IMG/VR virus record: IMGVR_UViG_3300021962_000583
Span: 1 to 25,598 of that record
Reading direction: 5' to 3' (one strand)
DNA: 25,598 nt
Source: a virus
Shown piece by piece: positions 3,664 to 24,768 of the stretch. How positions within the stretch are numbered: position 1 is the first letter of the stretch; the number at the start of each line of letters is the position of its first letter. The translations under genes and the position numbers were made by a program. The notes below the pieces were generated by a model. The model did not search any database. It saw only the letters and a program-made list of their open reading frames with translations, and was not told the origin of the DNA.

Positions 3664-3664
3664 A

Positions 3665-7587: not shown

Positions 7588-8166
7588 ATGTTCAATATTA
7601 AGTGTCGGGGAATTTATCCTACCGATTTGTACTTCGTTGATATCTTTGATCAAAAAGAAAACGACAGTTATAAAGCAGAACTTCTAAGGCTCTCACAAAT
7701 TGAACCTGGAAATACTGTAAGCAATCGTAATGGATGGCAGAGTGATATTAATCTCTGGCAGAATGAAGCATTTAAACCACTTCTAGAGAAGTCTTCTAAT
7801 ATTGTTCAATCAATCATTGCAGACCTCTCTACCAATAAACCAGAGTTCGTCATTCGCTCAATGTGGGGGAATATTAATCCCAAAGGTGGTTTTAATCTTA
7901 CTCACGTTCATCCGACTGGTTGGTTGAGTGCTGTGTATTATGTTGCACTTCCTCAAGGATGTCCTGGAATTACTTTTGAAGATCCAAGACCAGCAAGATT
8001 GATGGATTTTCAGCACAGTTGCTTGGTAGATAACCTTTATTATAATCATCAACCTCAAGTTGGTCAATTGGTTCTATTTCCTTCTTGGTTACCTCATTTC
8101 GTCAATCCAAATCCAACAGACGAAAATCGTATTTCAATCTCATTTAATGTGGAGTTACTTGTATGA
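7588..8166 (+). CDS. 2OG-Fe(II) oxygenase (putative hydroxylase, 2OG-FeII_Oxy_5-like)
   Basis: This 192-aa protein has the layout of the 2-oxoglutarate/Fe(II) family typified by TIGR02466: a GGFNLTHVHPTGWLSAVYYV strand pair with His106 and His108, G-I-T-F-E-D-P-R (127-134), GQLVLFPSWLPHFVNPN with distal His170, and Arg181 (NRISISFN) to bind 2-oxoglutarate. His108 stands where many relatives have Asp. HxH is seen in this subfamily, so it may still bind iron. Such enzymes hydroxylate protein side chains or small molecules; the substrate is unknown. No good ribosome-binding site precedes the ATG. Its last bases overlap the glycosyltransferase start (ATGA), which implies coupled translation. It lies directly before the first kelch unit. 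Confidence 0.85.
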   Translation: MFNIKCRGIYPTDLYFVDIFDQKENDSYKAELLRLSQIEPGNTVSNRNGWQSDINLWQNEAFKPLLEKSSNIVQSIIADLSTNKPEFVIRSMWGNINPKGGFNLTHVHPTGWLSAVYYVALPQGCPGITFEDPRPARLMDFQHSCLVDNLYYNHQPQVGQLVLFPSWLPHFVNPNPTDENRISISFNVELLV

Positions 8167-8829: not shown

Positions 8830-11568
8830 ATGGCAATTGGAGTATTTGGTCTTAAAAAAGTCTATAATAATCAAAGAAAGAATATAGAACAAGGACTTAA
8901 TCTGAATATTCCTGGACTTCTTTATGGTTACTACGGTGGTGGAGAAACTCCAACTCCTACTGTTGTTTGCACCATAGATCGTTTAGACTTCTCAACAGAA
9001 ACAGTAACAGTACCGACACCTAAGTTATCTCAAGCAAGATCTTTATTAGCAGCAACCTCAAGTAGTTCTTATGGTTACTTTGGTGGTGGTGTTACTCCTG
9101 GTTCTATTTTTGTCTGCACTATAGATCGTTTAGATTTCTCTACAGAAACAGTATCAGTACCAACACCAAAGTTATCTCAGGCAAGGCAAGGATTGTCAGT
9201 AGTTGCAAACAGTTCTTATGGTTACTTTGGTGGTGGTGCAACAGCACTGCGCTCTACTATAGACCGTTTAGATTTCTCTACTGAAACCATATCAGTACCA
9301 ACACCTAAGTTATCTCAATCAAAACAGTTATTGTCAGGAACCTCAAGTAGTTCTTATGGTTACTTTGGTGGCGGTCTTACTCCCATTGCCATTTGCACCA
9401 TAGATCGTATAGATTTCTCTACAGAAATAGTATCAACACCAACACCTCAGTTATCTCAAGCAAGATATGGATTAGCAGCAGTCTCAAGTAGTTCTTATGG
9501 TTATTTTGGTGGTGGTTACACTACTATTGTTGTTTGTACTATAGATCGTGTAGATTTTTCTACAGAAACAGTATCAGTCCCAACACCTAAGTTATCCCAA
9601 GCAAGAAGAGCATTAGCAGGAGCATCAAGTGCATCTTTTGGTTATTTTGGTGGTGGCATTTCTCCTGTTGCTGGTGTTTTCAGTACCATAGATCGTTTAG
9701 ATTTCTCAACAGAAACAGTAACAGTACCGACATCTAAGTTATCTCAAGCAAGACAAGGATTAGCATCAGTCCAAATAAACCGCAATCCAATCTTTAAAGG
9801 TTCTCCAAAGTACACTAACTGGCCTGAGAGTGCTACTACTGGTTACTTTGGTGGTGGTGCTATTCCTACTCCCGCCGGAGTTTCCACTATAGACCGTATA
9901 GATTTCTCCACAGAAACAGTAACAACACCAACACCTAAGTTATCTCAAGCAAGAGCTTCTTTAGCAGCAGTCTCAAGCAGTTCTTATGGTTACTTTGGTG
10001 GTGGTGGTCCAGGTCCTTTTTGCACCATAGACCGTTTAGATTTTTCAACAGAAACAGTATCAGTCCCAACACCTAAGTTATCTCAAGCAAGAACTGGTTT
10101 AGTAGCAGCATCAAGTAGTTCTTATGGTTACTTTGGTGGTGGTGCTATTCCTACTCGCGTTTGTACTATAGACCGTTTAGATTTCTCTACAGAAACAGTA
10201 TCAGTACCGACACCTCAGTTATCTCAAGCAAGATCTTTATTAGCAGCAACCTCAAGTAGTTCTTATGGATATTTTGGTGGTGGTTATGATACTACTCCTA
10301 TTCGAGTTTGTACCATAGACCGTTTAGATTTCTCTACAGAAACAGTATCAGTACCAACACCTAAGTTATCTCAAGCAAGAGCTTTCTTAGCAGCAACCTC
10401 AAGTAGTTCTTATGGATACTTTGGAGGTGGTTCTATTCCTACTGGTTCAGGTTCTCTCATAGACCGTTTAGATTTCTCCACAGAAACAGTATCAGTACCA
10501 ACACCCAAGTTATCTCAAGCAAGACAAGAACTTACAGCAACCTCAAGTAGTTCTTATGGTTACTTTGGTGGAGGTTTTGTTTCTTCTACTATAGATCGTT
10601 TAGATTTTTCTACAGAAACCGTATCAGCACCAACACCCAAGTTATCTCAAGGAAGATTTCAGTTAGCATCAGTCTCAGCAGCAACAGGAAACCGCAGAGT
10701 TGGTTCTGCGACTTATGGTTATTGGGGTGGTGGTGCTCCGAGTTCTCTCATAGACCGTTTAGATTTTTCTACAGAAACAGTATCAGTACCAACACCTAAG
10801 TTATCTCAAGCAAGAAGTATATTAACAGCAGTCTCAAGTAGTTCTTATGGATATTTTGGAGGGGGGAATGTTCCACTTTCTTCCTCAACTATAGATCGTC
10901 TAGATTTCTCTACAGAAACAGTATCAGTACCAACACCTAAGTTATCTCTAGCAAGAAATGGATTAGCAGCAGTTGCAAACAGTTCTTATGGTTACTTTGG
11001 TGGTGGCATTACTCTTGTTCCTACAGTCTCCACTATAGATCGTCTAGATTTCTCTACAGAAACAGTATCAGTACCAACACCTAAGTTATCCCAAACAAAA
11101 GGATATTTAACAGCAGCATCTAGTAGTTCTTATGGTTACTTTGGTGGTGGTTATGCTCCACCTACTTCTGTTAGCACAATAGACCGTTTAGACTTTTCAA
11201 CAGAAACCATATCAGTACCAACACCTAAGTTATCTCAAGCAAGAACTCAATTATCAGCAACATCAAATAGTTCTTATGGATATTTTGGTGGTGGAGCTAT
11301 TCCTACTCCTGCTCAGGTTTGTACCATAGACCGTCTAGACTTCTCTACAGAAACAGTATCAGTACCAACACCTAAGTTATCTCAAGCAAGATCTTACTCA
11401 GCAGGAGCATCAAGTAGTTCTTATGGTTACTTTGGTGGTGGATCTACTACTCCCACTCCTGTTTCTACAATAGATCGTATAGATTTCTCTACAGAAACTG
11501 TAACAATTCCATCACAAAAACTAACTCAAGCAAGAAGTGCTTTAGCTGCAGTCTCAAACGTAAACTAA
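8830..11568 (+). CDS. Kelch-like triple-propeller protein A (putative adhesin)
   Basis: This 912-aa protein has a variable 26-residue head and then LNIPGLLYGYYGGG, followed by 18 kelch-like units. Each unit has a YGYFGGG strand, a variable loop, [CS]TIDRLDF, STETVSVPTPKLSQAR, and LAAVSSSS. A 23-residue spacer (residues 315-337, key NPIFKGSPKYTNWPES) separates units 6 and 7. A second spacer (616-628, SAATGNRRVGSAT) separates units 12 and 13. This predicts three six-bladed beta-propellers. The doublet/triplet Gly, the conserved Tyr and the P-x-x-x-x-x-A-R spacing follow the kelch pattern, but the usual Trp is Val here. There is no signal peptide or membrane segment. The variable loops fit a receptor-binding role. 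It starts 4 bases after the glycosyltransferase. The stop lies within a late box. Function is inferred, not shown. Confidence 0.85.
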   Translation: MAIGVFGLKKVYNNQRKNIEQGLNLNIPGLLYGYYGGGETPTPTVVCTIDRLDFSTETVTVPTPKLSQARSLLAATSSSSYGYFGGGVTPGSIFVCTIDRLDFSTETVSVPTPKLSQARQGLSVVANSSYGYFGGGATALRSTIDRLDFSTETISVPTPKLSQSKQLLSGTSSSSYGYFGGGLTPIAICTIDRIDFSTEIVSTPTPQLSQARYGLAAVSSSSYGYFGGGYTTIVVCTIDRVDFSTETVSVPTPKLSQARRALAGASSASFGYFGGGISPVAGVFSTIDRLDFSTETVTVPTSKLSQARQGLASVQINRNPIFKGSPKYTNWPESATTGYFGGGAIPTPAGVSTIDRIDFSTETVTTPTPKLSQARASLAAVSSSSYGYFGGGGPGPFCTIDRLDFSTETVSVPTPKLSQARTGLVAASSSSYGYFGGGAIPTRVCTIDRLDFSTETVSVPTPQLSQARSLLAATSSSSYGYFGGGYDTTPIRVCTIDRLDFSTETVSVPTPKLSQARAFLAATSSSSYGYFGGGSIPTGSGSLIDRLDFSTETVSVPTPKLSQARQELTATSSSSYGYFGGGFVSSTIDRLDFSTETVSAPTPKLSQGRFQLASVSAATGNRRVGSATYGYWGGGAPSSLIDRLDFSTETVSVPTPKLSQARSILTAVSSSSYGYFGGGNVPLSSSTIDRLDFSTETVSVPTPKLSLARNGLAAVANSSYGYFGGGITLVPTVSTIDRLDFSTETVSVPTPKLSQTKGYLTAASSSSYGYFGGGYAPPTSVSTIDRLDFSTETISVPTPKLSQARTQLSATSNSSYGYFGGGAIPTPAQVCTIDRLDFSTETVSVPTPKLSQARSYSAGASSSSYGYFGGGSTTPTPVSTIDRIDFSTETVTIPSQKLTQARSALAAVSNVN
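8968..11565 (+). repeat. 18 kelch-like blades of protein A (6+6+6)
   Basis: Eighteen DFSTE-containing units of about 46-50 codons, near-identical at DNA level except for two windows per unit. Spacer 1 is at 9772-9840 and spacer 2 at 10675-10713. Loops after GGG include ETPTPTV, VTPGSIF, ATALR, YDTTPIR, SIPTGSGS and FVS. Units 5 and 9 carry tracts identical to units in proteins C and B. Confidence 0.9.
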
Positions 11569-11571
11569 ATA
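11565..11571 (+). promoter_or_regulatory. Late-promoter box CTAAATA overlapping kelch A stop
   Basis: AAC-TAA-ATA: the stop codon 11566-11568 is the core of CTAAATA. The sulfotransferase ATG follows 16 bases after the box, giving a very short predicted leader. Confidence 0.6.
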
Positions 11572-11587
11572 ATCAAAAAATTATATA

Positions 11588-12415
11588 ATGAAAACCTTCC
11601 ACTTTATGTCTGGACTTCCACGTTCAGGTTCGACATTACTGACTGCAATACTCAATCAAAATCCAGAGATACACGCATCTACAAACTCTCCTCTGTTAGA
11701 TACGATACATTATACAGAGGAGTATCTCTTATATAACTCAGAGCAATATAAAGCAAATCCAAAACCAGAGTGTGCATCTAAGGTCTTATCATCTATTGCA
11801 CCAAACTATTATTTCAACACTCAAGAACCAATCATCATTGATAAGTCACGAGGCTGGGTCAATCAAATACAACATATTAAAGACTACATTACTCCAGAAC
11901 CAAAGATTATTTGTATGGTTCGGAACATACAAGACATTATGGTTTCTTTTCTTGCACTGATAGAAAGAAGTAACACACTGTCTTTTATTGATAAAGGACT
12001 AATAGAAAGTAACTTAGAACTCACGAATGATAATCGCTGTGAGTATCTAATGTCTCCAAGAGGTATTATTGGAATGTCCTATCACGCATTATCAGAGGCA
12101 TATCGTAAAGGACATCAAAGGTATCTGTTGATCGTAGAGTATGATAACCTAATTCAAAATCCTCAAAGAGAACTTAATCGTATTCATTCATTCTTGAATG
12201 TACCTTTTTATTCTTATGATTTCTCAAATGTAAAACCAAAAGAGAATGAGAATGATGTGGTTTATGGACTTGAAAATATGCATACAGTCAGAAATAAAGT
12301 CCAAAAAATACATAGAGATAATTCAAAATATCTTAGTGAGTATATTTTAGATAAATATAAAGAAATGGAGTTCTGGCGTCAAGCAACTCCTCAGTATTCT
12401 GTATTCGGGATCTAA
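11588..12415 (+). CDS. PAPS-dependent sulfotransferase
   Basis: This 275-aa protein has the 5'-phosphosulfate-binding loop GLPRSGSTLL at residues 9-18 and a 3'-phosphate-binding segment at CMVRNIQDIMVS (Arg112, Ser120). IIIDKSRGW (82-90) and a C-terminal FLNVPF segment are usual in this family. It would transfer sulfate from PAPS to a hydroxyl or amine, such as a sugar or tyrosine. Length and motif order fit a complete cytosolic enzyme. The predicted leader is very short and lacks a clear ribosome-binding site. Its stop TAA shares the final A with the ATG of kelch B (TAATG), so the two proteins are very likely translationally coupled. The kelch scaffold is rich in conserved Tyr, Ser and Thr, which makes it a possible but unproven target. 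Confidence 0.88.
   Translation: MKTFHFMSGLPRSGSTLLTAILNQNPEIHASTNSPLLDTIHYTEEYLLYNSEQYKANPKPECASKVLSSIAPNYYFNTQEPIIIDKSRGWVNQIQHIKDYITPEPKIICMVRNIQDIMVSFLALIERSNTLSFIDKGLIESNLELTNDNRCEYLMSPRGIIGMSYHALSEAYRKGHQRYLLIVEYDNLIQNPQRELNRIHSFLNVPFYSYDFSNVKPKENENDVVYGLENMHTVRNKVQKIHRDNSKYLSEYILDKYKEMEFWRQATPQYSVFGI
12350..12357 (+). promoter_or_regulatory. Possible late-promoter box before kelch B
   Basis: GATAAATA, followed by TAAAG, lies inside the sulfotransferase gene 57 bases before the kelch B start. It resembles the ATAAATA boxes in the gaps, but could be chance in AT-rich coding DNA. Confidence 0.25.
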
Positions 12416-15141
12416 TGGCTGGTATATTTTCGCTTCAAGAAGTTAGAACAGAACAGTTAACGAATATTGATAGAGGACTTACGCTGAATATTCCTGGACT
12501 TCTTTATGGTTACTACGGTGGTGGATTTGTTAGTGCTGGTGCTCTCAGAGTTTGCACAATAGACCGTTTAGATTTCTCAACAGAAACAGTAACAGCACCG
12601 GCACCTAAGTTATCTCAAGGTAGATCTGATTTAGATGCAGTTTCAAATAATCTCTATGGATACTTTGGTGGGGGATTTACTGGTTCTCGGGTTTGTACCA
12701 TAGACCGTCTAGATTTTTCAACAGAAACAGTATCAGTACCAACACCTAAGTTATCTCAAGCAAGAAATAGTTTAGCAACAGTTGCTAGTAGTTCTTATGG
12801 TTACTTTGGTGGTGGAGAGTTACCTGCTTACGTTTGCACAATAGACCGTTTAGATTTCTCTACAGAAACAAGATCAACACCAACACCCAAATTATCTGAA
12901 GCAAAAGCTTATTTAGCAGCAGTTTCTAGCAGTTCTTATGGTTACTTTGGTGGTGGTATTAATAATGCTCCTTCTTATGTTTGCACTATAGACCGTCTAG
13001 ATTTCTCTACAGAAACAAGATCAACACCAACACCTAAGTTATCTCAAGCAAGGAGTTACTTAGCAGCCGCATCAAGTAGTTCTTATGGTTACTTTGCTGG
13101 AGGTTTTAATGGTGGTAATCTTTCTACTATAGACCGTTTAGATTTCTCTACAGAAACAACATCAGTACCAACACCTAAGTTATCATCAGCAAGATATGGA
13201 ATAGCAGCATCCTCTAGCAATTTTTATGGATATTTTGGTGGTGGTGTGCCTGATATTTCAACAATAGATCGTATAGATTTCTCTACTGAAACTGTATCAA
13301 CACCAGCACCCAAGTTGTCACAAGCAAGAGGAGTTTCATCTGGAGTTGAAATAAACCGCAACCCAATCTTTAAAGGTTCTCCAAAGTACACTAACTGGCC
13401 TGAAAGTGCTACTATGGGTTATTTTGGTGGTGGGTCAGGTGCGTCTACTATAGATCGCATAGACTTCTCAACAGAAACAGTATCAGTACCAACACCTAAG
13501 TTATCTCAAGGAAGGAGTAGTTTAGCAGCAGTTTCAAGTAGTTCTTATGCTTACTTTGGTGGTGGTTATATTCCTGTTATTCCTGTTTGTACCATAGACC
13601 GTTTAGACTTCTCTACAGAAACAATATCAGTACCAGCACCTCAATTATCTCAAGCAAGACGTGGATTGTCAGCAGTTGCAAGCAGTTCTTATGGTTACTT
13701 TGGTGGTGGCGCTATTCCTCCCGCGTCTAGTATTCGTGTTTGTACCATAGATCGTCTAGATTTCTCTACAGAAACAATATCAGTACCAACACCTAAGTTA
13801 TCTCAAGCAAGAAGAGACTTAACAAAAGTCTCAAGTAGTTCTTATGGTTACTTTGGTGGTGGTAGTAGTACTCCTACTACTTATGTTTGTACCATAGATC
13901 GTCTAGATTTCTCTACAGAAACAATATCAGTACCAACACCTAAGTTATCTCAAGCAAGATCTGAATTAGCAGCAGCATCAAGTAGTTCTTATGGTTACTT
14001 TGGTGGTGGTTATGATGTTTCTTTTTTTAGGGTTTGTACTATAGACCGTATAGATTTCTCAACAGAAACGGTATCAGTACCAACACCTAAGTTATCTCAA
14101 GCAAGAAATGGTTCAGAAGCAACTTCAAGTAGTTCTTTTGGTTACTTTTGTGTTGGAGCTCCCGGATTATTTTCTGCAACAAACCGTATAGATTTTTCTA
14201 CAGAAACAGTAACAGTTCCAACACCTAGATTACAACCCAGATCTAATTTAGCATCAGTCTCAGCAGCAACAGGAAACCGCAGAGTTGGTTCTGCGACTTA
14301 TGGTTATTTTGGTGGTGGTGGAGTTCCTCTTGTTTCCACTATAGACCGTTTAGACTTCTCTACAGAAACCGTATCAGCACCAGCACCTAAGTTATCTCAA
14401 GCAAGACGTTTTTTATCAGCAACCTCAAGTAGTTTTTATGGTTACTTTGGTGGTGGTGGTACTCCTGCTAATGTTTGTACCATAGACCGTTTAGACTTCT
14501 CTACAGAAACAACATCAGTACCAACACCTAAGTTATCTGAAGCAAGACAAGGATTGGCAACAGTTGCTAGTAGTTCTTATGGTTATTTTGGTGGTGGTCT
14601 TACTACTATTCAGGTTTGTACTATAGATCGTTTAGATTTTTCCACAGAAACAGTAACGACACCAACACCTAAGTTATCTCAAGCAAGATATGATTTAGTA
14701 GCAACCTCAAGTAGTTCTTATGGTTACTTTGCTGGTGGTTGGGCTCCTACTCGTGTTTGCACCATAACCCGCATAGACTTCTCTACAGAAACCGTATCAG
14801 CACCAGCACCTAAGTTATCTCAAGCAAGAGATCAATTATCAGCAACCTCAAGTAGTTCTTATGGTTACTTTGGTGGTGGTGCTATTCCTACTAATGTCTG
14901 TACTATAGACCGTTTAGATTTCTCAACAGAAACCGTATCAGTACCGACACCTCAGTTATCTCAAGCAAGATCTTTATTAGCAGCAACCTCAAGTAGTTCT
15001 TATGGTTACTTTGGTGGCGGATCTCCTGGTCCTGTTTCTACAATAGACCGTATAGATTTCTCTACAGAAACCGTGACAGTTCCATCACAAAAACTCACTC
15101 AAGCAAGAAGTGGTTTAGCAGCACTCTCAAACACAAACTAA
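12415..15141 (+). CDS. Kelch-like triple-propeller protein B (putative adhesin)
   Basis: This 908-aa paralogue of protein A has the same plan. A 22-residue divergent head (MAGIFSLQEVRTEQL) leads into LNIPGLLYGYYGGG, 18 blades, spacer 1 at residues 312-334, spacer 2 at 616-628, and the same ending (VPSQKLTQAR...SNTN). Loops differ from A almost throughout. Blades 11-12 look worn: GYFGGG has become GYFCVG, STIDR has become SATNR, and KLSQAR has become RLQPR with one residue lost. Twelve blades carry Cys rather than Ser before TID, more than in A or C. It starts on the last base of the sulfotransferase stop codon, with GGGA about 6 bases upstream. The stop is embedded in a late box. Proposed role: tail receptor-binding or adhesin protein, by inference. 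Confidence 0.85.
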   Translation: MAGIFSLQEVRTEQLTNIDRGLTLNIPGLLYGYYGGGFVSAGALRVCTIDRLDFSTETVTAPAPKLSQGRSDLDAVSNNLYGYFGGGFTGSRVCTIDRLDFSTETVSVPTPKLSQARNSLATVASSSYGYFGGGELPAYVCTIDRLDFSTETRSTPTPKLSEAKAYLAAVSSSSYGYFGGGINNAPSYVCTIDRLDFSTETRSTPTPKLSQARSYLAAASSSSYGYFAGGFNGGNLSTIDRLDFSTETTSVPTPKLSSARYGIAASSSNFYGYFGGGVPDISTIDRIDFSTETVSTPAPKLSQARGVSSGVEINRNPIFKGSPKYTNWPESATMGYFGGGSGASTIDRIDFSTETVSVPTPKLSQGRSSLAAVSSSSYAYFGGGYIPVIPVCTIDRLDFSTETISVPAPQLSQARRGLSAVASSSYGYFGGGAIPPASSIRVCTIDRLDFSTETISVPTPKLSQARRDLTKVSSSSYGYFGGGSSTPTTYVCTIDRLDFSTETISVPTPKLSQARSELAAASSSSYGYFGGGYDVSFFRVCTIDRIDFSTETVSVPTPKLSQARNGSEATSSSSFGYFCVGAPGLFSATNRIDFSTETVTVPTPRLQPRSNLASVSAATGNRRVGSATYGYFGGGGVPLVSTIDRLDFSTETVSAPAPKLSQARRFLSATSSSFYGYFGGGGTPANVCTIDRLDFSTETTSVPTPKLSEARQGLATVASSSYGYFGGGLTTIQVCTIDRLDFSTETVTTPTPKLSQARYDLVATSSSSYGYFAGGWAPTRVCTITRIDFSTETVSAPAPKLSQARDQLSATSSSSYGYFGGGAIPTNVCTIDRLDFSTETVSVPTPQLSQARSLLAATSSSSYGYFGGGSPGPVSTIDRIDFSTETVTVPSQKLTQARSGLAALSNTN
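12553..15138 (+). repeat. 18 kelch-like blades of protein B (6+6+6)
   Basis: Spacer 1 is at 13348-13416 and spacer 2 at 14260-14298. Both are almost identical in DNA to those of A and C and sit at the same blade boundaries (6/7 and 12/13). Loops after GGG include FTGSR, ELPAY, INNAPSY, SGA, AIPPASSIR, SSTPTTY, YDVSFFR and GTPAN. Blades 16-17 share a long tract with blades 8-9 of protein A. Confidence 0.9.
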
Positions 15142-15144
15142 ATA
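15138..15144 (+). promoter_or_regulatory. Late-promoter box CTAAATA overlapping kelch B stop
   Basis: Same AAC-TAA-ATA arrangement as after kelch A. The ATG at 15165 follows 20 bases after the box. Likely drives the two large glycosyltransferase fusions. Confidence 0.6.
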
Positions 15145-15164
15145 AGGTAACTACATCATTCTTT

Positions 15165-16838
15165 ATGAAGTCTGGAGCAACTGAAAGTTCTTTTCATTAT
15201 CTTGCTCAACATTACAAGTTTCCCGAAAATGTTGATGTAAGAAGAACGACTTACGAAATCATACAATCAAATAAGCAATATAAGATTATCTGGGCACACG
15301 ATAACTGTGACCAAGCAGGACACGCAACACTTCCTCAGCATATAGACGAGATTGATAAAATCGTCTGTGTATCAAACTGGGAAAGAGAACAGTATATTAA
15401 GTACAATAGAGCACCCGCAGAGAAACTCACGGTTATTCCAAATGGCGTGGATGATATGTTTCGTCCATCAGGAAAGTCTAAATCAAAGACTTGTATCTTT
15501 TTCTCTGCACCTCATAAAGGCATCACACCATTAGTTCCAATCTGGAAAGAAGTGATTAAACATCATCCAGATGCAAAACTCAAGGTCTTTTCTTCTATGT
15601 CTCTTTACGGAGATATTCAACCAGGAGAAGGTGAGAATGAAACTATCACAACAGAGAATGGCTTAGAACCATCACCATTCATACCAGTTTATAAAGAACT
15701 TCAAGCACTTCCTGGAGTAGAGTATTCTCCTTGTATTGATCGTGAAGAACTGCTACCTCATATTCAAGATGCAGCATTTTATATTCATCCAAATGTCTGG
15801 GAAGAGACCTTCTGTGTCTCATTAGCAGAAGCAATGTCCTGTGGTTGCTTTCCAATCACAACAGATATGGGAGCACTTCCAGAAACCTCAAATGGAATGG
15901 GTAAGTACATTCCTATGTCTGGACAGAATACCAAGAGAGGTTGGATTACTGATGATACTTTTCATCAGAACTTTGCAGAAGAAGTCATCAGAGCACTTCA
16001 TTTCTTTGATGTTGCAAAAGAAGAATATGAACAAGCATCTCAAGCAATCTCAAGGTTTGCAATTGAAAAGTACTCTTGGAGAAGAGTTGCTGGAATGTGG
16101 GAGACACTTATCAACAGCATCACCAAGACAGTGAATATCTTTGGAGATACCAACATCAAAACACTTGAAGAGTTTTATGAGTGGTCTTCAAATGTGAATA
16201 TGGTTCCTGCTCAGCATATTGATTACCTATATCGTCTGAAGTATCATCATAACTTTGAACCAGCAGTGGTTTATGATTTGGGTTCTGCTGTTTTGCACTG
16301 GGCTAAGTTTGCTTCGTGTGTATGGAATGAAGCAGAGTTTTACTGTGTAGATGGATTTGATGGTTATCAAAACCTATATGAAAAGCACAGACTTCGTTAT
16401 GCGATTGAAGTTCTCAGTGACACAGAAAAAGAAGTGATTTTCTATGAGAACGCAAAGAACACAGGTAGTTGTTCTTATTATGAAATGAACTATGAACAGT
16501 TTCCTCATAATCTAGAATTTAAGGATAGTTTTTACAGAGAAAGAAAGGTTATAACAAAGTCATTAGATAAACTGATTGAAGAAAAGAATTGGAAACTTCC
16601 AGATTTAATCAAGATGGACATTCAAGGATGTGAACTTGATGTTCTCAAAGGAGCAAAGAAAGCACTTCAGCATTGTAATCACCTTATTCTAGAACTACAA
16701 AGTACAGAGTATATGAAAGGTGCTCCACTCAATCACGAAGTTATTTCTTATCTGGAACAAGAAGGTTATACTTTAATTTCACACTTTGTTCAGAATGTCA
16801 GTGGTGCTGACGGTGATTATCACTTTGCAAGACTTTAA
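15165..16838 (+). CDS. GT4 glycosyltransferase fused to FkbM-type methyltransferase
   Basis: This 557-aa two-domain enzyme begins with a GT-B fold of family-4 type at residues 1-320: KIVCVSNWEREQY, VIPNGVDDMF, FFSAPHKGI, then EETFCVSLAEAMSCG with the E-x7-E pair Glu214/Glu222 that binds the nucleotide sugar. Residues ~333-557 form an FkbM-like SAM methyltransferase: VVYDLGS (371-374 DLGS), YCVDGF, and MDIQGCELDVLKGAKKAL (484-501). The N-terminus begins at KSGATESSFHYLA, so the usual first strand and glycine-rich loop are short. No earlier start exists in frame near here. The fusion would add and O-methylate a sugar on the same glycan. The C-terminal domain is a close paralogue of that in the next gene. 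The gap between them is 5 bases. Confidence 0.85.
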   Translation: MKSGATESSFHYLAQHYKFPENVDVRRTTYEIIQSNKQYKIIWAHDNCDQAGHATLPQHIDEIDKIVCVSNWEREQYIKYNRAPAEKLTVIPNGVDDMFRPSGKSKSKTCIFFSAPHKGITPLVPIWKEVIKHHPDAKLKVFSSMSLYGDIQPGEGENETITTENGLEPSPFIPVYKELQALPGVEYSPCIDREELLPHIQDAAFYIHPNVWEETFCVSLAEAMSCGCFPITTDMGALPETSNGMGKYIPMSGQNTKRGWITDDTFHQNFAEEVIRALHFFDVAKEEYEQASQAISRFAIEKYSWRRVAGMWETLINSITKTVNIFGDTNIKTLEEFYEWSSNVNMVPAQHIDYLYRLKYHHNFEPAVVYDLGSAVLHWAKFASCVWNEAEFYCVDGFDGYQNLYEKHRLRYAIEVLSDTEKEVIFYENAKNTGSCSYYEMNYEQFPHNLEFKDSFYRERKVITKSLDKLIEEKNWKLPDLIKMDIQGCELDVLKGAKKALQHCNHLILELQSTEYMKGAPLNHEVISYLEQEGYTLISHFVQNVSGADGDYHFARL

Positions 16839-16843
16839 GACCT

Positions 16844-19270
16844 ATGAAAGTAATTGATACTTTTACATTCTTTAATGAGTTTGATATTCTCAAACTTCGT
16901 CTCTTATATCTCAATGATATTGTAGATCACTTTATCATTTCTGAGAGTAACTATACACATTCTGGAAAATCAAAACCTTATTATCTGGATCAAGTATGGA
17001 ATGATATTCCAGAAAATATTCGCAGAAAAATCATTCGTCTTAAGTATGAACCTGATATTAGTCAGTTTAATTTTCCTACAGATATTGTGATTGGTGATTA
17101 TACAAATGATAACTGGAAACTAGAAAGACAGCAAAGAGATCTAATCAGTCAGAACTTAAGTTCTTTTGATCCAAATGATTTCTTTATGGTCAGTGATGTG
17201 GATGAGATACCACGCAAAGAAGTCATTCAAGAAATCATAGAAAGTGGAGAACAAGACTTTTGTTATGTCTCTGCGTGTGAGTTGTTCTACTATAACTTTA
17301 AGACTTTTGCTCTTGATAACTGGGGAGGAACTGTATTCTCAACAGTCAAGAATGCAATTGAAAAAGGATGTGATTACTTCCGAACTTATAGAAACAATGC
17401 ATTTCCTCCAATCATCAAAGGAGGATGGCACTTCTCATACTTTGGTGGTGTAGAGCAAATCAAGTATAAGTTAAGTTCATATGCTCATCAAGAGTTCAAC
17501 AAAGAAACTTATAAAAGTGATGAGCATATTCAAAGAGCAATTGAAGAAAAGAAAGATCTTTTTGTAGATCAGAAAGACTTCAGAGAATATAATTTCTATG
17601 ATTTTCCAAAAGAACTTCAAGATCTAATCGCACAGATTTATCCAAGAGATTATTATCTTTCAGAGACAACAATCAATGTTTGTTTCTCTACAATTCCTCC
17701 ACGATTTGAAATCCTAGATGAAGTTGTAAAGTCTTATTATAATCAAACAGTAAGACCAAATAAGATTATCATTACTGTTTGCAAGAACTATCGTAGATTT
17801 TCTTATGAGAACTTTAAACTTGAAAGTCTAAGTGAAAAGTATCCAGACTTTGTTCATTTGTTGTTTGTAGATGATGACTATGGACCAGCAACAAAGATCT
17901 ATGGAGCATTAAAATCTTTGGAGATGTATCCAAATTCTTATGTGATGATCTGCGATGATGATATGGTTTATGATCCAAAGATTATTGAATGTTACTCAAA
18001 GTGTGTAGAGATTTGCAATCAATCTGTTTGGACTTCAATTGGTTTTAATGACATTCTGAATATTCCAAATCATCCGATTTGGAATTTACAAGGATGCAAC
18101 ACTTATCTGTTCTATCCAAAACTACTAGAAAAGTTTAATACAAAGAACTTTGAATTATTGTACTTTGGATTTGTTCATAGAAATGCAAATCCTAAAGAAG
18201 TATTTCTACACGATGATTATTTTATTTCTTGCATTCTTCACGATCTTCAAGTTCAAATCAGAAGTTTTAAACTATCAGAAAAGGTTTATCAAGAGTTACC
18301 AATACCAACTCAAATTCATCACCTATACAAATGTCACTCTGATGAAATCAAATTAATTCAAAATATTCGCAGGAGTTATGGAGAACTAAATACGACGATA
18401 CACTGTGATTATCTGGATGCAAATGATGAGAAAGTAAATGAATGTGATATTTCAGGAGAATTAGACGTAGACCAATATCACAAATTTATTGGTGGTATTT
18501 TGGAAAAGTATAAAGTTTTTAAAGTTAGAATTGATGCGAAAACTATGAACCAACTATTAGATAAAAAGACCAGTGACCTTCAAGAGTTTTATGACTGGCA
18601 GATTAAATATACTCAAATGCCCGAAGACCATATTGATTATCTCTTTAGATTGAAGTATTGGAATAACTTTCAACCTAAAGTGATTTATGATATTGGTTCT
18701 AACTTCTTATCCTGGCATAAACTTGCATCAAATGTTTGGAGAGATGCAAAGATTTACTGTGTAGACGCATTCTCTCAGTTTGAAGAAACCTATCCTCGTT
18801 ATGGTATTGAATATGCGATTGAACTTCTGAGTGATAAGGAAGAAGAAGTTGAATTCTATGAGAATGTAACGTGTCCTGGACTTTGTACAATGTATAAAGT
18901 GAATGAAACTTATGATAGAGGAAAAAATTTCTATAATCAAAATCTTCATAAAACTCTTCGCAAAACAAAGACCTTAGATACTTTGGTAAGGGAAAATAAT
19001 TGGGCACTACCAGAACTCATTAAAATTGATGTTCAAGGTGCAGAAGTAAATATTCTTCAAGGTGCTCAGGAAACTTTACAGAATTGCAATCACGTCATTC
19101 TTGAAGCACAATCAAAAGTGTTTAGTTCTGGAGCTCCAATGCTTAATGAAGTAGAACAATATATGAATTCTATTGGTTTTGTTCTGTTTCATCATATTGG
19201 ATTTAATGGTGATCAAGAGTGTGATGGAGACTATCATTTTGTAAGACAGTCTTCTTTACCACATAAATAA
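16844..19270 (+). CDS. Three-domain GT17 - GT2-like - FkbM methyltransferase fusion
   Basis: This 808-aa protein begins with a GT17 domain (N-acetylglucosaminyltransferase family) at residues 1-265: DTFTFFNEFDILKLRL, FIISESNYTHSGK, FFMVSDVDEIPR (Asp118, Asp120), and GGWHFSYFGG. Residues ~276-500 form a second GT-A domain: NVCFSTIPPRFE, VRPNKIIITV, and metal site MICDDDMVYDP (Asp371-373), with LHDDYFIS further on. Residues ~575-805 are FkbM-like: VIYDIGSNFL, YCVDAF, and KIDVQGAEVNILQGA. This last domain and its EFYDWQ...DHIDYLFRLKYWNNF lead-in match the C-terminus of the preceding gene, so one domain was duplicated and joined to different glycosyltransferases. It may build and cap a short methylated glycan in one chain. 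Acceptor unknown: virion protein or host surface. Confidence 0.85.
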   Translation: MKVIDTFTFFNEFDILKLRLLYLNDIVDHFIISESNYTHSGKSKPYYLDQVWNDIPENIRRKIIRLKYEPDISQFNFPTDIVIGDYTNDNWKLERQQRDLISQNLSSFDPNDFFMVSDVDEIPRKEVIQEIIESGEQDFCYVSACELFYYNFKTFALDNWGGTVFSTVKNAIEKGCDYFRTYRNNAFPPIIKGGWHFSYFGGVEQIKYKLSSYAHQEFNKETYKSDEHIQRAIEEKKDLFVDQKDFREYNFYDFPKELQDLIAQIYPRDYYLSETTINVCFSTIPPRFEILDEVVKSYYNQTVRPNKIIITVCKNYRRFSYENFKLESLSEKYPDFVHLLFVDDDYGPATKIYGALKSLEMYPNSYVMICDDDMVYDPKIIECYSKCVEICNQSVWTSIGFNDILNIPNHPIWNLQGCNTYLFYPKLLEKFNTKNFELLYFGFVHRNANPKEVFLHDDYFISCILHDLQVQIRSFKLSEKVYQELPIPTQIHHLYKCHSDEIKLIQNIRRSYGELNTTIHCDYLDANDEKVNECDISGELDVDQYHKFIGGILEKYKVFKVRIDAKTMNQLLDKKTSDLQEFYDWQIKYTQMPEDHIDYLFRLKYWNNFQPKVIYDIGSNFLSWHKLASNVWRDAKIYCVDAFSQFEETYPRYGIEYAIELLSDKEEEVEFYENVTCPGLCTMYKVNETYDRGKNFYNQNLHKTLRKTKTLDTLVRENNWALPELIKIDVQGAEVNILQGAQETLQNCNHVILEAQSKVFSSGAPMLNEVEQYMNSIGFVLFHHIGFNGDQECDGDYHFVRQSSLPHK
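19262..19269 (+). promoter_or_regulatory. Late-promoter box CATAAATA overlapping a stop codon
   Basis: The TAA stop of the three-domain fusion (19268-19270) overlaps the box by two bases. The next ATG is at 19311, preceded by ACGGGGT. Predicted unit: 19311-22904. Confidence 0.5.
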
Positions 19271-19310
19271 AACTAACTGAACTGAAGTTCTTTTCATTCA
19301 ACGGGGTATT

Positions 19311-20177
19311 ATGTCTGACGCTTATAAGGATATTGCGCTTGCTAAGGCAGATGATGTTTTAGATGACAGCAATGCATTTATGTTTAAGGTTTATAATGAA
19401 TGTATGAAATGGGAGGAAAGTGAGAAAGAACTCGCTGGTAGTCGCTCCAATTTCCAGATTGAAAAATTCATCATTCATGATAACTTTACTGTTCCATCTG
19501 CATTCAAAGGAGCAATCATCAATCGTAAGAGTGTTGCTGAAGGATTGCTTCAAGGAATTCAAGAAGCAAAGAGAATTGCTAGAGAATTTCACTATAAGTG
19601 GGATGGAAAAGATAAGTCTCAACCAATTTGGTGGAAGAATGGTAGAGGTGGTGAAGAACTTTGTTGGTATGATCTTGATGAATTTAATTTCCACCGTCTC
19701 ATTCACGGACTAAATCAAGGTTTCCAAGCAGCAGTTGATGAACTTGAATTCTTTGATAAATTGATTGCAAGACTTGTTGAAATGAATGGTGGTCAACCAG
19801 TCACTAAAGAACAATATGATGCAGACCAACCAGTTTATTGGGAACGTCGTCTTGCTAACCAGTCACTTGATGATCTACTTCAAGCAAAGACTGGTGTAAA
19901 TGCAGGTAACATTCGTTCAATGAGACGTGCAAGTGCTCCAACAGTTCTTCCAGATGATGTAAATAGAACGAAGGGAACCTTTGGCGATCCTAATAATCCA
20001 ATGTCCTTCCTGAATGCACTACAAGAGCACGTAGCAAAAGGTATTGAAGAAATCAGTGGAATGGTAAATATTCTTGAAGGTAAACAAGAAGAACCTCAAA
20101 AGATACTTGATCCTGCTACAGGAACTGAAGGTGTTTCATTATTCAACGAACAACTAAAACAACCAGAACAGGTATAA
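19311..20177 (+). CDS. Conserved phage protein of unknown function, upstream of kelch C
   Basis: This 288-aa protein starts MSDAYKDIALAKADDVLDD. It is mainly helical by composition in residues 1-165, with Trp- and Asp/Glu-rich stretches (WKNGRGGEELCWYDLDEFNF). A more flexible tail with RASAPTVLPDD and GDPNNPMSFLNALQEHV follows, ending in a charged, Gln/Pro-rich end. I see no catalytic motif, signal peptide or membrane segment, and I do not recognise a named family. It sits where the glycosyltransferase and sulfotransferase sit relative to kelch A and B, 6 bases before kelch C and within the same predicted late unit. It could be a structural, chaperone or partner protein for kelch C. ACGGGGT upstream is the likely ribosome-binding site. 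Confidence 0.75.
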   Translation: MSDAYKDIALAKADDVLDDSNAFMFKVYNECMKWEESEKELAGSRSNFQIEKFIIHDNFTVPSAFKGAIINRKSVAEGLLQGIQEAKRIAREFHYKWDGKDKSQPIWWKNGRGGEELCWYDLDEFNFHRLIHGLNQGFQAAVDELEFFDKLIARLVEMNGGQPVTKEQYDADQPVYWERRLANQSLDDLLQAKTGVNAGNIRSMRRASAPTVLPDDVNRTKGTFGDPNNPMSFLNALQEHVAKGIEEISGMVNILEGKQEEPQKILDPATGTEGVSLFNEQLKQPEQV

Positions 20178-20183
20178 GGACCG

Positions 20184-22904
20184 ATGCCAATTCAAGGGGA
20201 TGTATTCAGTTTAGACCGTGTTTATGATAATCAGGTTGCAAACCTAACACCTGGTTTACAACTGAATATTCCTGGACTTCTTTATGGTTATTATGGTGGT
20301 GGTTATTCTACTACTTTAGTTCAACAGACTTCCACTATAGACCGTATAGATTTCTCTACAGAAACTGTAGCAGTACCAGCACCTAAATTATCCGCAATAA
20401 AATCTGGTTTAACAGCAACCTCAAGTAGTTCGTATGGTTACTTTGGTGGTGGTGGAGCTGGTACTGCTCCTTCATTTTTTTCTACTATAGATCGTTTAGA
20501 TTTCTCAACAGATACAGTATCAGTACCAACCCCTAAGTTATCTTTATCAAGAAATCAATTAGCAGCAACTTCAAGTAGTTCTTATGGTTACTTTGGTGGT
20601 GGTGTTCTTGTCGTTACACAAGTTGCTCTTTCCACTATAGACCGTTTAGATTTTTCTACAGAAACAGTATCAACACCAACACCTAAGTTATCTGTAGCAA
20701 GAAATCAATTAGCAGCAACTTCAAGTAGTTCATATGGTTACTTTGGTGGTGGCGGCGGTGGTTCTCTCATAGATCGTTTAGATTTCTCCACAGAAACAAC
20801 ATCAGTACCAACACCTAAGTTATCTCAAGCAAGAGGATTATTAGCAGCAACCTCAAGTAGTTCTTATGGTTACTTTGGTGGTGGTTATGCTCCACCTTTT
20901 GTTTGTACTATAGATCGTTTAGATTTCTCCACAGAAACAGTAACAACACCAACACCTAAGTTATCTCAAGCAAGAAGAGCATTAGCAGGAGCATCAAGTG
21001 CATCTTTTGGTTATTTTGGTGGTGGAGCTCCTGGTAGTATTTCTACAATAGATCGTATAGATTTTTCTACAGAAACAGTATCAGTACCAACACCTAAGTT
21101 ATCTCAAGCAAGAAATAATATATCAGGCACTCGAATAAACCGCAACCCAATCTTTAAAGGTTCTCCAAAGTACACTAACTGGCCTGAGAGTGCTACTACT
21201 GGTTATTTTGGTGGAGGTAGTACTCCTGCTGTTGCTTCTACCATAGACCGTATAGATTTCTCTACAGAAACTGTATCAGTACCAACACCTAAGTTATCTC
21301 AAGCAAGAAATGGTTTAGCAGCAACCTCAAGTAGTTCTTATGGTTACTTTGGTGGTGGTTTTAGTGGTGCTATTAGTGTTTGTACCATAGACCGTTTAGA
21401 TTTCTCTACAGAAACTGTATCAGTACCAACACCTAAGTTATCTCAAGCAAGAAATGGTTTAGCAGCAACCTCAAGTAGTTCTTATGGTTACTTTGGTGGT
21501 GGTTTTTCACCTCGTGTTTGTACTATAGATCGTCTAGATTTCTCTACAGAAACTGTATCAGTTCCAACACCTAAGTTATCTCAAGCAAGAAATGGTTTAG
21601 CAGCAACCTCAAGTAGTTCTTATGGTTACTTTGGTGGTGGTTTAAATGCCGGTCTCTTTTTTGTTTGTACCATAGACCGTTTAGATTTCTCTACAGAAAC
21701 TGTATCAGTACCAACACCTAAGTTATCTCAAGGAAGAGAAAGTTTATCAGCAACCTCAAGTGCATCTTTTGGTTATTTTGGTGGCGGATCTCCTGGTCCT
21801 ATTTCTACAATAGACCGTCTAGATTTCTCTACAGAAACCGTATCAGTCCCAACACCTAAGTTATCTCAAGCAAGAAATCAATTATCAGCAACCTCAAGTA
21901 GTTCTTATGGTTACTTTGGTGGTGGTTTTTCTTTTACTTCTACTATAGATCGTCTAGATTTCTCTACAGAAACCGTATCAGTCCCAACACCTAAGTTATC
22001 TCAAGCAAGAAGTGGTTTAGCATCAGTCTCAGCAGCAACAGGAAACCGCAGAGTTGGTTCTGCGACTTATGGTTATTGGGGTGGTGGTGGTTCATTAATA
22101 GACCGTTTAGATTTCTCTACAGAAACAGTATCAGTACCAACACCAAAATTATCAGAAGCAAAGAATTATACATCAGCAACCTCAAGTAGTTCTTATGGTT
22201 ACTTTGGTGGCGGTATTACTTCTATTCAAGTCTGCACCATAGACCGTTTAGATTTCTCCACAGAAACTGTATCAGTACCAACACCTAAGTTATCTCAAGC
22301 AAAAAGAGCACTAACAGCAACTGCAAGTAGTTCTTATGGTTACTTTGGTGGTGGTTTTACAGGTTCTGTTCAAGTTTCTACCATAGACCGTTTAGATTTC
22401 TCTACAGAAACAGTATCAGTACCAACACCCAAGTTATCATTATCCAGAGAAACAATAGGAGCGACTTCAAGTAATTCTTATGGATACTTTGGTGGTGGTA
22501 GTGGTCCTGTTTCCACTATAGACCGTTTAGATTTCTCTACAGAAACAGTATCAGTTCCAACACCTAAGTTATCTCAAGCAAGACAACAATTAACAGCAAC
22601 CTCAAGTAGTTCTTATGGTTACTTTGGTGGTGGTATTGCTTCTACTACTGTTTGTACTATAGATCGTTTAGATTTTTCAACAGAAACAACATCAGTACCA
22701 ACACCTAAGTTATCACAAGCAAGGCAAGCATTAGCAGCAACTTCAAGTAGTTCTTATGGTTATTTTGGTGGTGGTTATTTCTTCCCAACTCCAACACATT
22801 CAACAATAGACCGTATAGATTTCTCCACAGAAACCATAACAGTTCCATCACAAAAACTTACACAAGCAAGAAATGGTTTAGCAGCAGTCTCAAACGCAAA
22901 CTAA
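20184..22904 (+). CDS. Kelch-like triple-propeller protein C (putative adhesin)
   Basis: This 906-aa third paralogue has a 27-residue divergent head (MPIQGDVFSLDRVYDNQ) followed by LNIPGLLYGYYGGG, 18 blades, and spacers at residues 317-339 and 616-628. Spacer 2 starts at residue 616 in all three proteins despite different loop lengths. The ribosome-binding site AAGGA overlaps the stop of the gene before (GTATAAGGACCGATG). The blade scaffold is the most uniform of the three. Blades 7-9 have almost identical DNA but different loops (FSGAIS, FSPR, LNAGLFF), a sign of recent blade duplication or conversion. The C-terminus ends in VPSQKLTQAR...SNAN and the stop lies in a late box. The role is inferred to be receptor binding or adhesion. 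Other possibilities are a structural spacer or a glycan-binding lectin-like propeller. Confidence 0.85.
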   Translation: MPIQGDVFSLDRVYDNQVANLTPGLQLNIPGLLYGYYGGGYSTTLVQQTSTIDRIDFSTETVAVPAPKLSAIKSGLTATSSSSYGYFGGGGAGTAPSFFSTIDRLDFSTDTVSVPTPKLSLSRNQLAATSSSSYGYFGGGVLVVTQVALSTIDRLDFSTETVSTPTPKLSVARNQLAATSSSSYGYFGGGGGGSLIDRLDFSTETTSVPTPKLSQARGLLAATSSSSYGYFGGGYAPPFVCTIDRLDFSTETVTTPTPKLSQARRALAGASSASFGYFGGGAPGSISTIDRIDFSTETVSVPTPKLSQARNNISGTRINRNPIFKGSPKYTNWPESATTGYFGGGSTPAVASTIDRIDFSTETVSVPTPKLSQARNGLAATSSSSYGYFGGGFSGAISVCTIDRLDFSTETVSVPTPKLSQARNGLAATSSSSYGYFGGGFSPRVCTIDRLDFSTETVSVPTPKLSQARNGLAATSSSSYGYFGGGLNAGLFFVCTIDRLDFSTETVSVPTPKLSQGRESLSATSSASFGYFGGGSPGPISTIDRLDFSTETVSVPTPKLSQARNQLSATSSSSYGYFGGGFSFTSTIDRLDFSTETVSVPTPKLSQARSGLASVSAATGNRRVGSATYGYWGGGGSLIDRLDFSTETVSVPTPKLSEAKNYTSATSSSSYGYFGGGITSIQVCTIDRLDFSTETVSVPTPKLSQAKRALTATASSSYGYFGGGFTGSVQVSTIDRLDFSTETVSVPTPKLSLSRETIGATSSNSYGYFGGGSGPVSTIDRLDFSTETVSVPTPKLSQARQQLTATSSSSYGYFGGGIASTTVCTIDRLDFSTETTSVPTPKLSQARQALAATSSSSYGYFGGGYFFPTPTHSTIDRIDFSTETITVPSQKLTQARNGLAAVSNAN
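20331..22901 (+). repeat. 18 kelch-like blades of protein C (6+6+6)
   Basis: Spacer 1 is at 21132-21200 and spacer 2 at 22029-22067. Blade 5 has a tract identical to blade 5 of protein A (ARRALAGASSASFGYFGGG). Loops after GGG include GAGTAPSFF, VLVVTQVAL, GGGS, YAPPF, APGSI, FSFT, GS and YFFPTPTHS, with lengths from 2 to about 9 residues. Confidence 0.9.
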
Positions 22905-22930: not shown

Positions 22931-23590
22931 ATGAATGATTTGCTATCCAATATTTTAATTCAACCTAAAGTTGTTACAAAAGAGAACTGTAAATATCTTA
23001 CAAACTTTGCAAAGACTGCCGATCTAGAGCAGATGGGAGTGTTTGATCCTGATAAAACAAATCTTACTAAACAATCAGAACATAAAGTAGATAAGTCTTC
23101 TAGAGATGTAAAGTGTGCTGATATAACTCCAATTCTTCCTCAAGTTCACGACTTGATGGCAAACATTATTGAACACGTTATCAATCCTTTTTATGGATTT
23201 AAAATTCGCGATAGTGAAATGCCCCAACTTCTTTATTATGAAAAAGGAGGGCACTATAAACCTCACTATGATGCAGAAGCACTTTGGACAAATCCTGATG
23301 GAACAAAGATGTGGAAGAAGAGTGTAGATCGTGATCTTTCTACTGTTCTTTTTCTCAACGATGACTTTGAAGGTGGTTATTTTTCTTTTCCAGACTTAAG
23401 AATTAAGATCAAACCAGAACCAGGGCTTTTAGTTTGCTTTCCTTCCTCAAGATACTTTAAGCACTGCGTAGAGCCAGTTCTTTCTGGTCAACGTTATACT
23501 CTTGTAACGTGGATGAGAGTGCAAGGGTTTAAAACAAAGGAAGAACAAGATAGAGAAATTGAACAGAAGTATGGAATTAAGGTTCCATAA
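22931..23590 (+). CDS. Prolyl-4-hydroxylase-like 2OG-Fe(II) oxygenase
   Basis: This 219-aa protein has the P4H-type double-stranded beta-helix pattern. MPQLLYYEKGGHYKPHYDAE contains the HxD iron ligands His112 and Asp114. STVLFLNDDFEGGYFSFPD (137-155) and PEPGLLVCFPSSRYFKHCVEP with distal His178 follow, and Arg188 in SGQRYTLVTW should bind 2-oxoglutarate. Family members hydroxylate proline or similar residues in proteins. The conserved VPTPKL strand present in every kelch blade upstream offers proline-rich candidate substrates, but this is inference. It has its own late box at the end of kelch C and a weak ribosome-binding site. The length fits a complete single-domain enzyme. Confidence 0.88.
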   Translation: MNDLLSNILIQPKVVTKENCKYLTNFAKTADLEQMGVFDPDKTNLTKQSEHKVDKSSRDVKCADITPILPQVHDLMANIIEHVINPFYGFKIRDSEMPQLLYYEKGGHYKPHYDAEALWTNPDGTKMWKKSVDRDLSTVLFLNDDFEGGYFSFPDLRIKIKPEPGLLVCFPSSRYFKHCVEPVLSGQRYTLVTWMRVQGFKTKEEQDREIEQKYGIKVP

Positions 23591-24162: not shown

Positions 24163-24753
24163 TTAATTTGGTCTAGTTAAATTTAATAACTGATAACACT
24201 TATCATTACGGTCAAATGCATAATCTGCATATTGACCGTTTTTTCTTACAAAGTGTAAGAATAGTTGCATAAAACGATCATTATCGTGAGTTCTTAGTGG
24301 ACTTCTCCAGTGTTCTACTTGAGTTCCTAGATATGCAACGCCGTGACCTACTGGAGTAACCACTGCTCTATTCTTTCCTTCCAGATCTTTGATTTTGATA
24401 GGCCACGCAGCATCACCACAAATATTCATTGTGACTGATACTTCGCAAGATGGACGATCGGTATGGCAGTTCATCCACCCACCTTTATGATATGTGGTAG
24501 AAAACCAATAAGTAGGTAACAGTTCTTCTCCAACTAACTGCTCAAGAACTGGTTTAAGTCTCCACATAATATAAGTACAAGTTGGCGGAGCATAACAAGT
24601 TAGAACCCTTCCTCTTTCTGGATCTTTATATCCGTTTAGACTTCCAAGTTCTCTTACTGCACCACAAAGATTTTTATACTTAATCTCTAGTGCCTCTGTT
24701 GGCGTAATAATCTCTGGGAGATAGTGCCAACCTTTTTTCAGAAAAGAACTCAT
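24163..24753 (-). CDS. Putative 2OG-Fe(II) oxygenase, minus strand
   Basis: About 196 aa from the ATG at 24753. A GTG two codons upstream (24759) would give 198. Numbered from the GTG, the likely iron ligands are His99 and Asp101 in MNCHTDRPSCEVSVTMNI and His150 in YLGTQVEHWRSP, with Arg162 (NDRFMQLFLHFV) for 2-oxoglutarate. WPIKIKDLEGKNRAVVTP forms the expected strands between them. The sequence is clearly different from the other two oxygenases here. It is the only minus-strand gene in this half of the window. Its 3' coding part carries the plus-strand terminator. A weak TATTAT box precedes it. It looks like a separately controlled accessory gene (moron-like). Substrate unknown. Confidence 0.8.
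   Translation of the reverse strand: MSSFLKKGWHYLPEIITPTEALEIKYKNLCGAVRELGSLNGYKDPERGRVLTCYAPPTCTYIMWRLKPVLEQLVGEELLPTYWFSTTYHKGGWMNCHTDRPSCEVSVTMNICGDAAWPIKIKDLEGKNRAVVTPVGHGVAYLGTQVEHWRSPLRTHDNDRFMQLFLHFVRKNGQYADYAFDRNDKCYQLLNLTRPN
24208..24244 (+). terminator. Rho-independent terminator embedded in antisense gene
   Basis: The 5' arm ACGGTCAA-ATGCA (24208-24220), loop TAATC, and 3' arm TGCAT-A-TTGACCGT (24226-24239) form a 13-bp stem with one bulged A. A run of six T (24239-24244) follows. It lies 46 bases after the chaperone-like stop. The same bases encode part of the C-terminus of the minus-strand oxygenase. No T-run follows the hairpin on the minus strand, so it should act on plus-strand transcripts. 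Confidence 0.8.
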
Positions 24754-24768
24754 ATCCACATTTACTCT

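Follow-up and report, generated by a model that had tools for sequence, protein, structure and literature searches.

The region 8830-22904 of the virus record IMGVR_UViG_3300021962_000583 (IMG/VR; 25,598 nt, the whole of which is referred to here as the window) contains three genes encoding proteins of 18 kelch units each, members of a family in which quantisation of the units by six, conserved N-terminal anchors, exchange of whole rings and a non-synonymous excess in the loops are directly observed. The explanation that best accounts for the whole, to which we give a probability of roughly two in three, is that their products are chains of closed six-bladed kelch propellers, with a short N-terminal anchor of its own fixing each chain at a different site. 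The blade frame would be kept nearly constant while the BC and DA loops, the ligand-binding surface of kelch domains, would be under diversifying selection, and whole rings would be lost, gained and exchanged through recombination at the linker, anchor and C-terminal borders. Such proteins would most likely constitute a virion-surface device, in the tail-fibre region, that recognises variable Synechococcus cell-surface structures.

Locus organisation and kelch identity

The original prediction had claimed 18 DFSTE/DFSTD units in each of three proteins, two spacers after units 6 and 12 and a total of 54 blades in the locus. Units were delimited in the three ORFs by DFST(E/D) counts and by splitting at the GY(F/Y/W)GGG motif, and all of these figures were borne out: each protein contains 18 units of about 47 aa in a 6+6+6 arrangement (3 x 18, 54 in total), and the spacers fall at the same positions in all three, with a linker of 22 aa (INRNPIFKGSPKYTNWPESAT-x) after unit 6 and one of 13 aa (AATGNRRVGSATY) after unit 12. 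Other units are 42-51 aa long, and unit 12 of protein 2 (FCVG...ATNR) is degenerate yet present. The span 8830-22904, originally presented as the repeat locus, does hold the three kelch genes, which are long ORFs on the + strand; the coordinates are corrected below, as four unrelated ORFs lie between the kelch genes, encoding a sulfotransferase, two glycosyltransferase/FkbM fusions and a 288-aa protein.

8830..11568, + strand: kelch protein 1, anchor type K; 912 aa, 18 units in three rings
8830..8925, + strand: N-terminal anchor type K of protein 1, MAIGVFGLKKVYNNQRKNIEQGLNLNIPGLLY, conserved within type across phages
8926..9774, + strand: ring 1 of protein 1 (units 1-6), from the unit count
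9775..9840, + strand: long linker of protein 1, INRNPIFKGSPKYTNWPESATT, from the unit count; WPESAT ends the N-terminal anchor in 12-unit homologues
9841..10677, + strand: ring 2 of protein 1 (units 7-12), from the unit count
10678..10716, + strand: short linker of protein 1, AATGNRRVGSATY, from the unit count
10717..11565, + strand: ring 3 of protein 1 (units 13-18) with C-terminal strand, from the unit count
11588..12415, + strand: sulfotransferase, a neighbour outside the repeat protein (PF13469, 2e-17)
12415..15141, + strand: kelch protein 2, anchor type E, GIFSLQEVRTEQLTNI; 908 aa (PF24681, 3e-23)
12508-13350, 13417-14262 and 14302-15138, + strand: rings 1, 2 and 3 of protein 2, with linkers at 13351-13416 and 14263-14301
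19311..20177, + strand: conserved 288-aa protein, from synteny; S-SKS1 homologue 68% identical
20184..22904, + strand: kelch protein 3, anchor type D, GDVFSLDRVYDNQ; 906 aa (Pfam Kelch_1, 1.8e-5)
20286-21134, 21201-22031 and 22071-22901, + strand: rings 1, 2 and 3 of protein 3, with linkers at 21135-21200 and 22032-22070

A profile search against kelch families, one of the checks proposed with the prediction, matched all three proteins above the Pfam cut-offs: Kelch_3 in protein 1 (38.7 bits vs a cut-off of 22, 1e-9), PF24681 in protein 2 (82.7 vs 50, 3e-23) and Kelch_1 in protein 3 (24.6 vs 20.1, 1.8e-5). PF24681 was also matched at E <= 1e-5 by 59 of 66 homologues, the best value being 1.1e-27. 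With phmmer, protein 1 matched the designed six-bladed kelch protein SAKe6FR at 1.2e-11, and a profile of the 66 homologues retrieved SAKe6FR from the PDB (2.9e-14) as well as a kelch protein and KLHL12. Pfam matches to SpdB, VP17, Myc_N and DotA were dismissed as compositional artefacts of the repeats. Of the kelch signature, GG and the preceding Y/F are kept, and the Trp at strand d is replaced. Based on the alignment to the SAKe6FR sequence and on the general features of the fold, we assign GYFGGG to strand b and TIDRLDFST to strand c; TVSVPTPKLSQAR would form strand d and the turn that goes with it, and xxLAATSSS would be strand a of the blade that follows.

The kelch locus is preceded by tail-fibre ORFs (PHROG tail fibre, S74 chaperone) and followed by a tail-fibre assembly ORF, an order that is similar in relatives. 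The nearest isolate is the Synechococcus phage S-SKS1 (Llyrvirus), and the longer related contigs carry T4-type gp23 and psbA/psbD-type genes, for which reason these phages are regarded as T4-like cyanophages. S-SKS1 encodes the same family in a three-gene locus with the 288-aa protein, the sulfotransferase and a 2OG oxygenase; it differs from the window in that its proteins have two rings rather than three and its genes are broken in the record. These genes (SWZG_00001/00291, 00286/00287 and 00289) are annotated as hypothetical and resolve to 6+6 units each (3 x 12) if one reads on across the frame shifts and across the ends of the linear record. The breaks themselves (NC_020851.1, 201354-208007 and 1-1226) are probably sequencing or assembly faults in the repeats. 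The sulfotransferase gene adjoins kelch genes in S-SKS1 and in other loci too, and the gene of the 288-aa protein, which may be a partner, immediately precedes the D-type kelch gene in most inspected loci.

Unit counts in homologues and predicted ring closure

Counting units in related phages had been suggested as a further check, blade numbers other than multiples of six being considered contrary to the prediction. In total, 65 related loci were retrieved from IMG/VR, and the counted set comprised 91 complete homologues, non-redundant at a k-mer cut of 0.8. Multiples of six were found in 84 of these (12 units in 65 proteins, 18 in 15, 24 in three and 30 in one), with linkers after every sixth unit, and the prediction passed this check, blade numbers being almost exclusively multiples of six. 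As this regularity extends over 84/91 homologues, the 6+6+6 arrangement of the window proteins goes beyond chance. The assignment of three propellers per chain holds, by count, for the window proteins, and is not general, as the number of rings per protein varies from 2 to 5 across relatives.

The seven non-multiples comprise three S-SKS1 pieces, the broken gene of L059, and three proteins with a short ring: L039 (4+6), L037 (6+4) and L008 (6+5+6). A further deviation, L016 (6+4+6), was left out of the 91 as redundant with L008. The deviating totals of 10, 16 and 17 units correspond to unit losses within one ring, the other cases being broken genes. In the short rings of these four proteins most units are nearly identical, and it is plausible that the rings of 4 or 5 units represent assembly collapse. 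The totals of 10, 11, 17 and 29 obtained in a first pass were mostly due to degenerate units that had been missed, the real deviations being those of L039, L037, L008 and L016 plus the broken L059. Likewise, the S-SKS1 counts of 5, 8 and 9 ceased to be exceptions once frames and record ends were traced, becoming 12 + 12 + 12. In a search of bacterial genomes, 30 stretches matched a pattern, none of them coding for a relative, and no cellular homologue was found.

Closure of the rings was addressed by structure prediction. The AlphaFold2 model of the full 912-aa protein, computed with 14 sequences of near-identical repeats, reached a pLDDT of 36 and a pTM of 0.35 and was not used. A homologue with 12 diverged units (L026:2277-4196; mean unit identity 0.36) was modelled instead, from an alignment of 66 sequences that included rings 2-3 of the window proteins, which are ~44% identical to it. 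This model reached a pLDDT of 79.8, with low confidence at the linker (residues 323-340) and in the N-terminal region, where a short helix of low confidence (residues 7-16) matches the position of the anchor. A Foldseek search of the model against the PDB returned SAKe6 designs, KLHL12, KLHL3 and Keap1 first, over ~300 residues, with target TM values mostly of 0.84-0.92 to six-bladed kelch rings. Because the matched targets are complete six-bladed rings, the model is considered to contain closed six-bladed rings, and because the query is twice the length of the targets each match covers one ring at a time.

In the DSSP string of this model a strand lies just before the linker (316-319) and another at the C-terminus (636-639), and the first blade of each ring starts directly at strand b (25-29 and 343-347). 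Ring closure of the 1+3 type, as in Keap1, fits both this string and the linker positions; the first blade of a ring would have no strand a of its own, this strand being supplied by the one that precedes the linker or lies at the C-terminus. Such closure would explain why the linker is always found between strands a and b. The predicted kelch rings of the 12-unit homologue, as opposed to a solenoid, support the interpretation of the window proteins as closed six-bladed propellers, although the full-length window protein itself gave a pLDDT of 36; closure in the window proteins would accordingly be read from a homologue ~44% identical to them.

Loop variability, anchors and ring exchange

Across the 54 window units most frame positions have an entropy close to 0. 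The BC loop, which follows GGG and whose positions are aligned from the GGG end only, reaches ~3 bits, and the two DA-loop residues behind SQAR have entropies of 3.0 and 3.1 bits; no two of the BC loops are the same (54/54 distinct). Comparison between units gave a pN/pS of 0.33 for the 22-codon frame and of 0.1 for strand b, against 1.8 for the BC loop and 1.6 for the DA loop, pS being similar throughout and the compared pairs of repeats being non-independent; the same pattern, high in loops and low in the frame, was observed in 15/15 loci. Kelch domains are known to vary, and to bind their substrates, at the BC and DA loops (PMC10146909), and on this basis one face of each ring seems to be the target of selection. 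The frame is also homogeneous at the DNA level: the core nucleotide identity is 0.87, codons are strongly biased, and Ile is encoded by ATA, a minority codon elsewhere in the window, in 53/54 units. Such near-identical frame DNA suggests that blade amplification is recent or ongoing.

Diversification by a diversity-generating retroelement (DGR) was considered and rejected as unlikely, since no reverse transcriptase (PF00078) was found in any of 15 related records (0/15; several of these are fragments, and positive controls were found) and the loops vary in length.

Well-covered loci of the S-SKS1 type contain three kelch genes with the anchors K (FGLKKVY), E (FSLREVRTEQ) and D (GDVFGLDRVYD), and in the more distant G007/G010 group (L042, L062) there are heads resembling K and E, together with a longer frame of kelch-like character. 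Among 18-unit proteins, anchors of one type share 70% identity across phages and anchors of different types 37%. For the propeller bodies the two figures are 63% and 62%, so that the bodies keep no memory of type. No convincing instance of an anchor motif on non-kelch proteins was found; weak matches in Pseudomonas phages (E about 10) were disregarded. The WPESAT of the long linker also closes the anchor of the 12-unit proteins, which suggests that the 18-unit proteins may have arisen by addition of a ring at the front.

Close relatives may differ in one ring, or in both, even where the identity of flanks and anchor is 95-100%. Sliding-identity comparison of the type E proteins of L063 and L066 gave ~100% in ring 1 up to the linker, ~55% in ring 2 and 98% at the C-terminus, and the type E proteins of L066 and L065 displayed the opposite pattern. 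Between the type K proteins of L065 and L069, ring 1 is ~60% and ring 2 mostly 93-100% identical, and in the type D pairs L065/L068 and L063/L066 ring 2 is replaced while ring 1 is near-identical. In 16 ring pairs, several of them redundant, most 24-mers are common to one ring and almost none to the sister ring, and one ring is largely common to an E and a D protein from different phages. Since the breakpoints lie at the anchor, the linker and the C-terminus, the ring is regarded as the unit of exchange. The interpretation given in the original prediction is hereby extended by three features that it did not contain, namely the identity of the loops as kelch BC and DA, the conserved set of three anchor-bearing paralogues and whole-ring exchange.

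Alternative explanations and relation to known systems

The presence of tail-fibre genes on both sides of the locus, with a tail-fibre assembly chaperone downstream, was counted in favour of a virion recognition device, as was the detection of a kelch protein in the virion of phage CBB; location of the window proteins on the virion and receptor binding would be read from this context, and no virion proteomics was found for this group. Virion decoration by whiskers, hairs or head fibres, with weak generic binding to cells, particles or other phages and with loop diversity due to escape or drift, is an unlikely competitor. Phage CBB has three kelch proteins (CBB_550/552/554), one of which, CBB_552, was detected in the virion by mass spectrometry, as well as tail whiskers of unassigned gene (PMC5259590); jumbo-phage virion structural proteins are among the BFVD matches, and long ring strings would suit a fibre. 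Yet pN/pS above 1 in only the two classical ligand-binding loops, and replacement of whole rings between near-identical phages, fit changing specificity better. Proteins acting inside the cell on host proteins, e.g., by blocking defence or signalling as poxvirus kelch proteins do, are considered improbable: kelch rings are general protein binders and poxvirus kelch proteins occur among the fold matches, but the window proteins carry no extra effector domain, their genes sit among tail-fibre genes and a tail-fibre chaperone, and three conserved short anchors on repetitive proteins of very large size suit an assembled particle.

Even less probable is a propeller enzyme, of galactose-oxidase or sialidase-like type, acting on surface glycans. 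Glycan-modifying genes are adjacent and Pfam Kelch_3/4 are named after galactose oxidase; however, the invariant residues belong to the repeated frame (G, Y, D, R, F) and the linker, with no unique conserved metal-binding set apparent, and the ligand face is hypervariable in every blade. The frame that is near-identical in DNA, together with the listing of kelch among highly repetitive propeller families amplified from single blades (PMC9218822), would be compatible with non-functional expansion of a kelch seed by slippage or recombination, in which the number 18 is accidental. This is the least credible reading, as slippage would not place a linker behind each sixth unit and produce totals of 12, 18, 24 or 30, nor does it fit conserved three-anchor sets and pN/pS above 1 at two sites only. 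Host recognition by swappable kelch-ring strings is therefore preferred. A more specific version of it, which we judge evenly balanced, holds that the whole propeller is the exchange unit: each virion would carry three anchors, each with 2-5 rings and 12-30 hypervariable BC loops, and loop selection plus recombination of rings and blades would act without a reverse transcriptase, like a binder repertoire on a constant scaffold.

Compared with Keap1, KLHL12 and SAKe6, the window proteins share the four-stranded blade, six blades per ring, the GG that ends strand b and variable BC and DA loops. They differ in that a single chain carries several rings in tandem, blade similarity rises to ~90%, BTB and other domains are absent, and V-S/T-V-P takes the place of the conserved kelch Trp at strand d. 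With the kelch proteins of jumbo phages (CBB_550/552/554, PhiPA3, BcepSaruman) they share the occurrence of kelch propellers in large phages and a matching fold, although identity in the fold comparison is ~12-20%; tandem-ring strings, a fixed count of six blades and anchor types are not described for those proteins in the literature searched. Near-identical blades recall the repetitive propellers cited above, with the difference that here a whole closed ring is gained, lost or swapped and that the frame and the loops evolve in opposite ways. Phage receptor-binding proteins diversified by DGRs (e.g., tentaclins, PMC10743442) likewise combine a constant scaffold with hypervariable sites; the present family differs from them in that no reverse transcriptase was found in 15 related records and that the loops vary in length. 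Kelch rings and kelch virion proteins are already known; the quantised multi-ring form with ring exchange was not found in the open-access literature searched.

Receptor-binding parts are known for few marine cyanophages, and how these phages keep pace with the changing surfaces of their hosts is an open question. In the present locus the module (the ring) is clear, exchange can be seen and the variable face is defined, which may allow host specificity to be mapped ring by ring. In addition, the locus documents natural propeller evolution in which the number of rings, the identity of the blades and the loops all change around a fixed number of blades per ring, and it may be a ready source of six-fold symmetric binding scaffolds.

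Several minor observations concern the neighbourhood and the relatives. The two glycosyltransferases at 15165-16838 and 16844-19270 (GT4-like; GT17 + GT2-like) each have a fused FkbM-type methyltransferase domain. Two 2OG-Fe(II) oxygenases (PF13640, PF13759) and a similar-looking ORF without a Pfam match were detected at 22931-23590, 7588-8166 and 24163-24759 (-); oxygenase-type ORFs flanking kelch genes recur in relatives, and a possible role for them is hydroxylation of prolines, either of collagen-like fibres or of the proline-rich kelch loops. A tail-fibre-like ORF at 4239-5294 contains tandem peptide repeats (SSAGIATYADTAGISTY), and two small overlapping paralogous ORFs (MASQVLSGATNASYTNNTGQNVR...; 3427-3675 and 3665-4174) without a Pfam match lie on the minus strand, opposite to the tail fibres. 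In a distant relative a 2661-aa open frame with kelch-like units (G010:C1, near 106782-107648) lies beside the 30-unit protein, and two K-type proteins (L026, 8603-11194; L015, 2793-5342) have an extra glycine-rich C-terminal domain of ~230 aa after ring 2.
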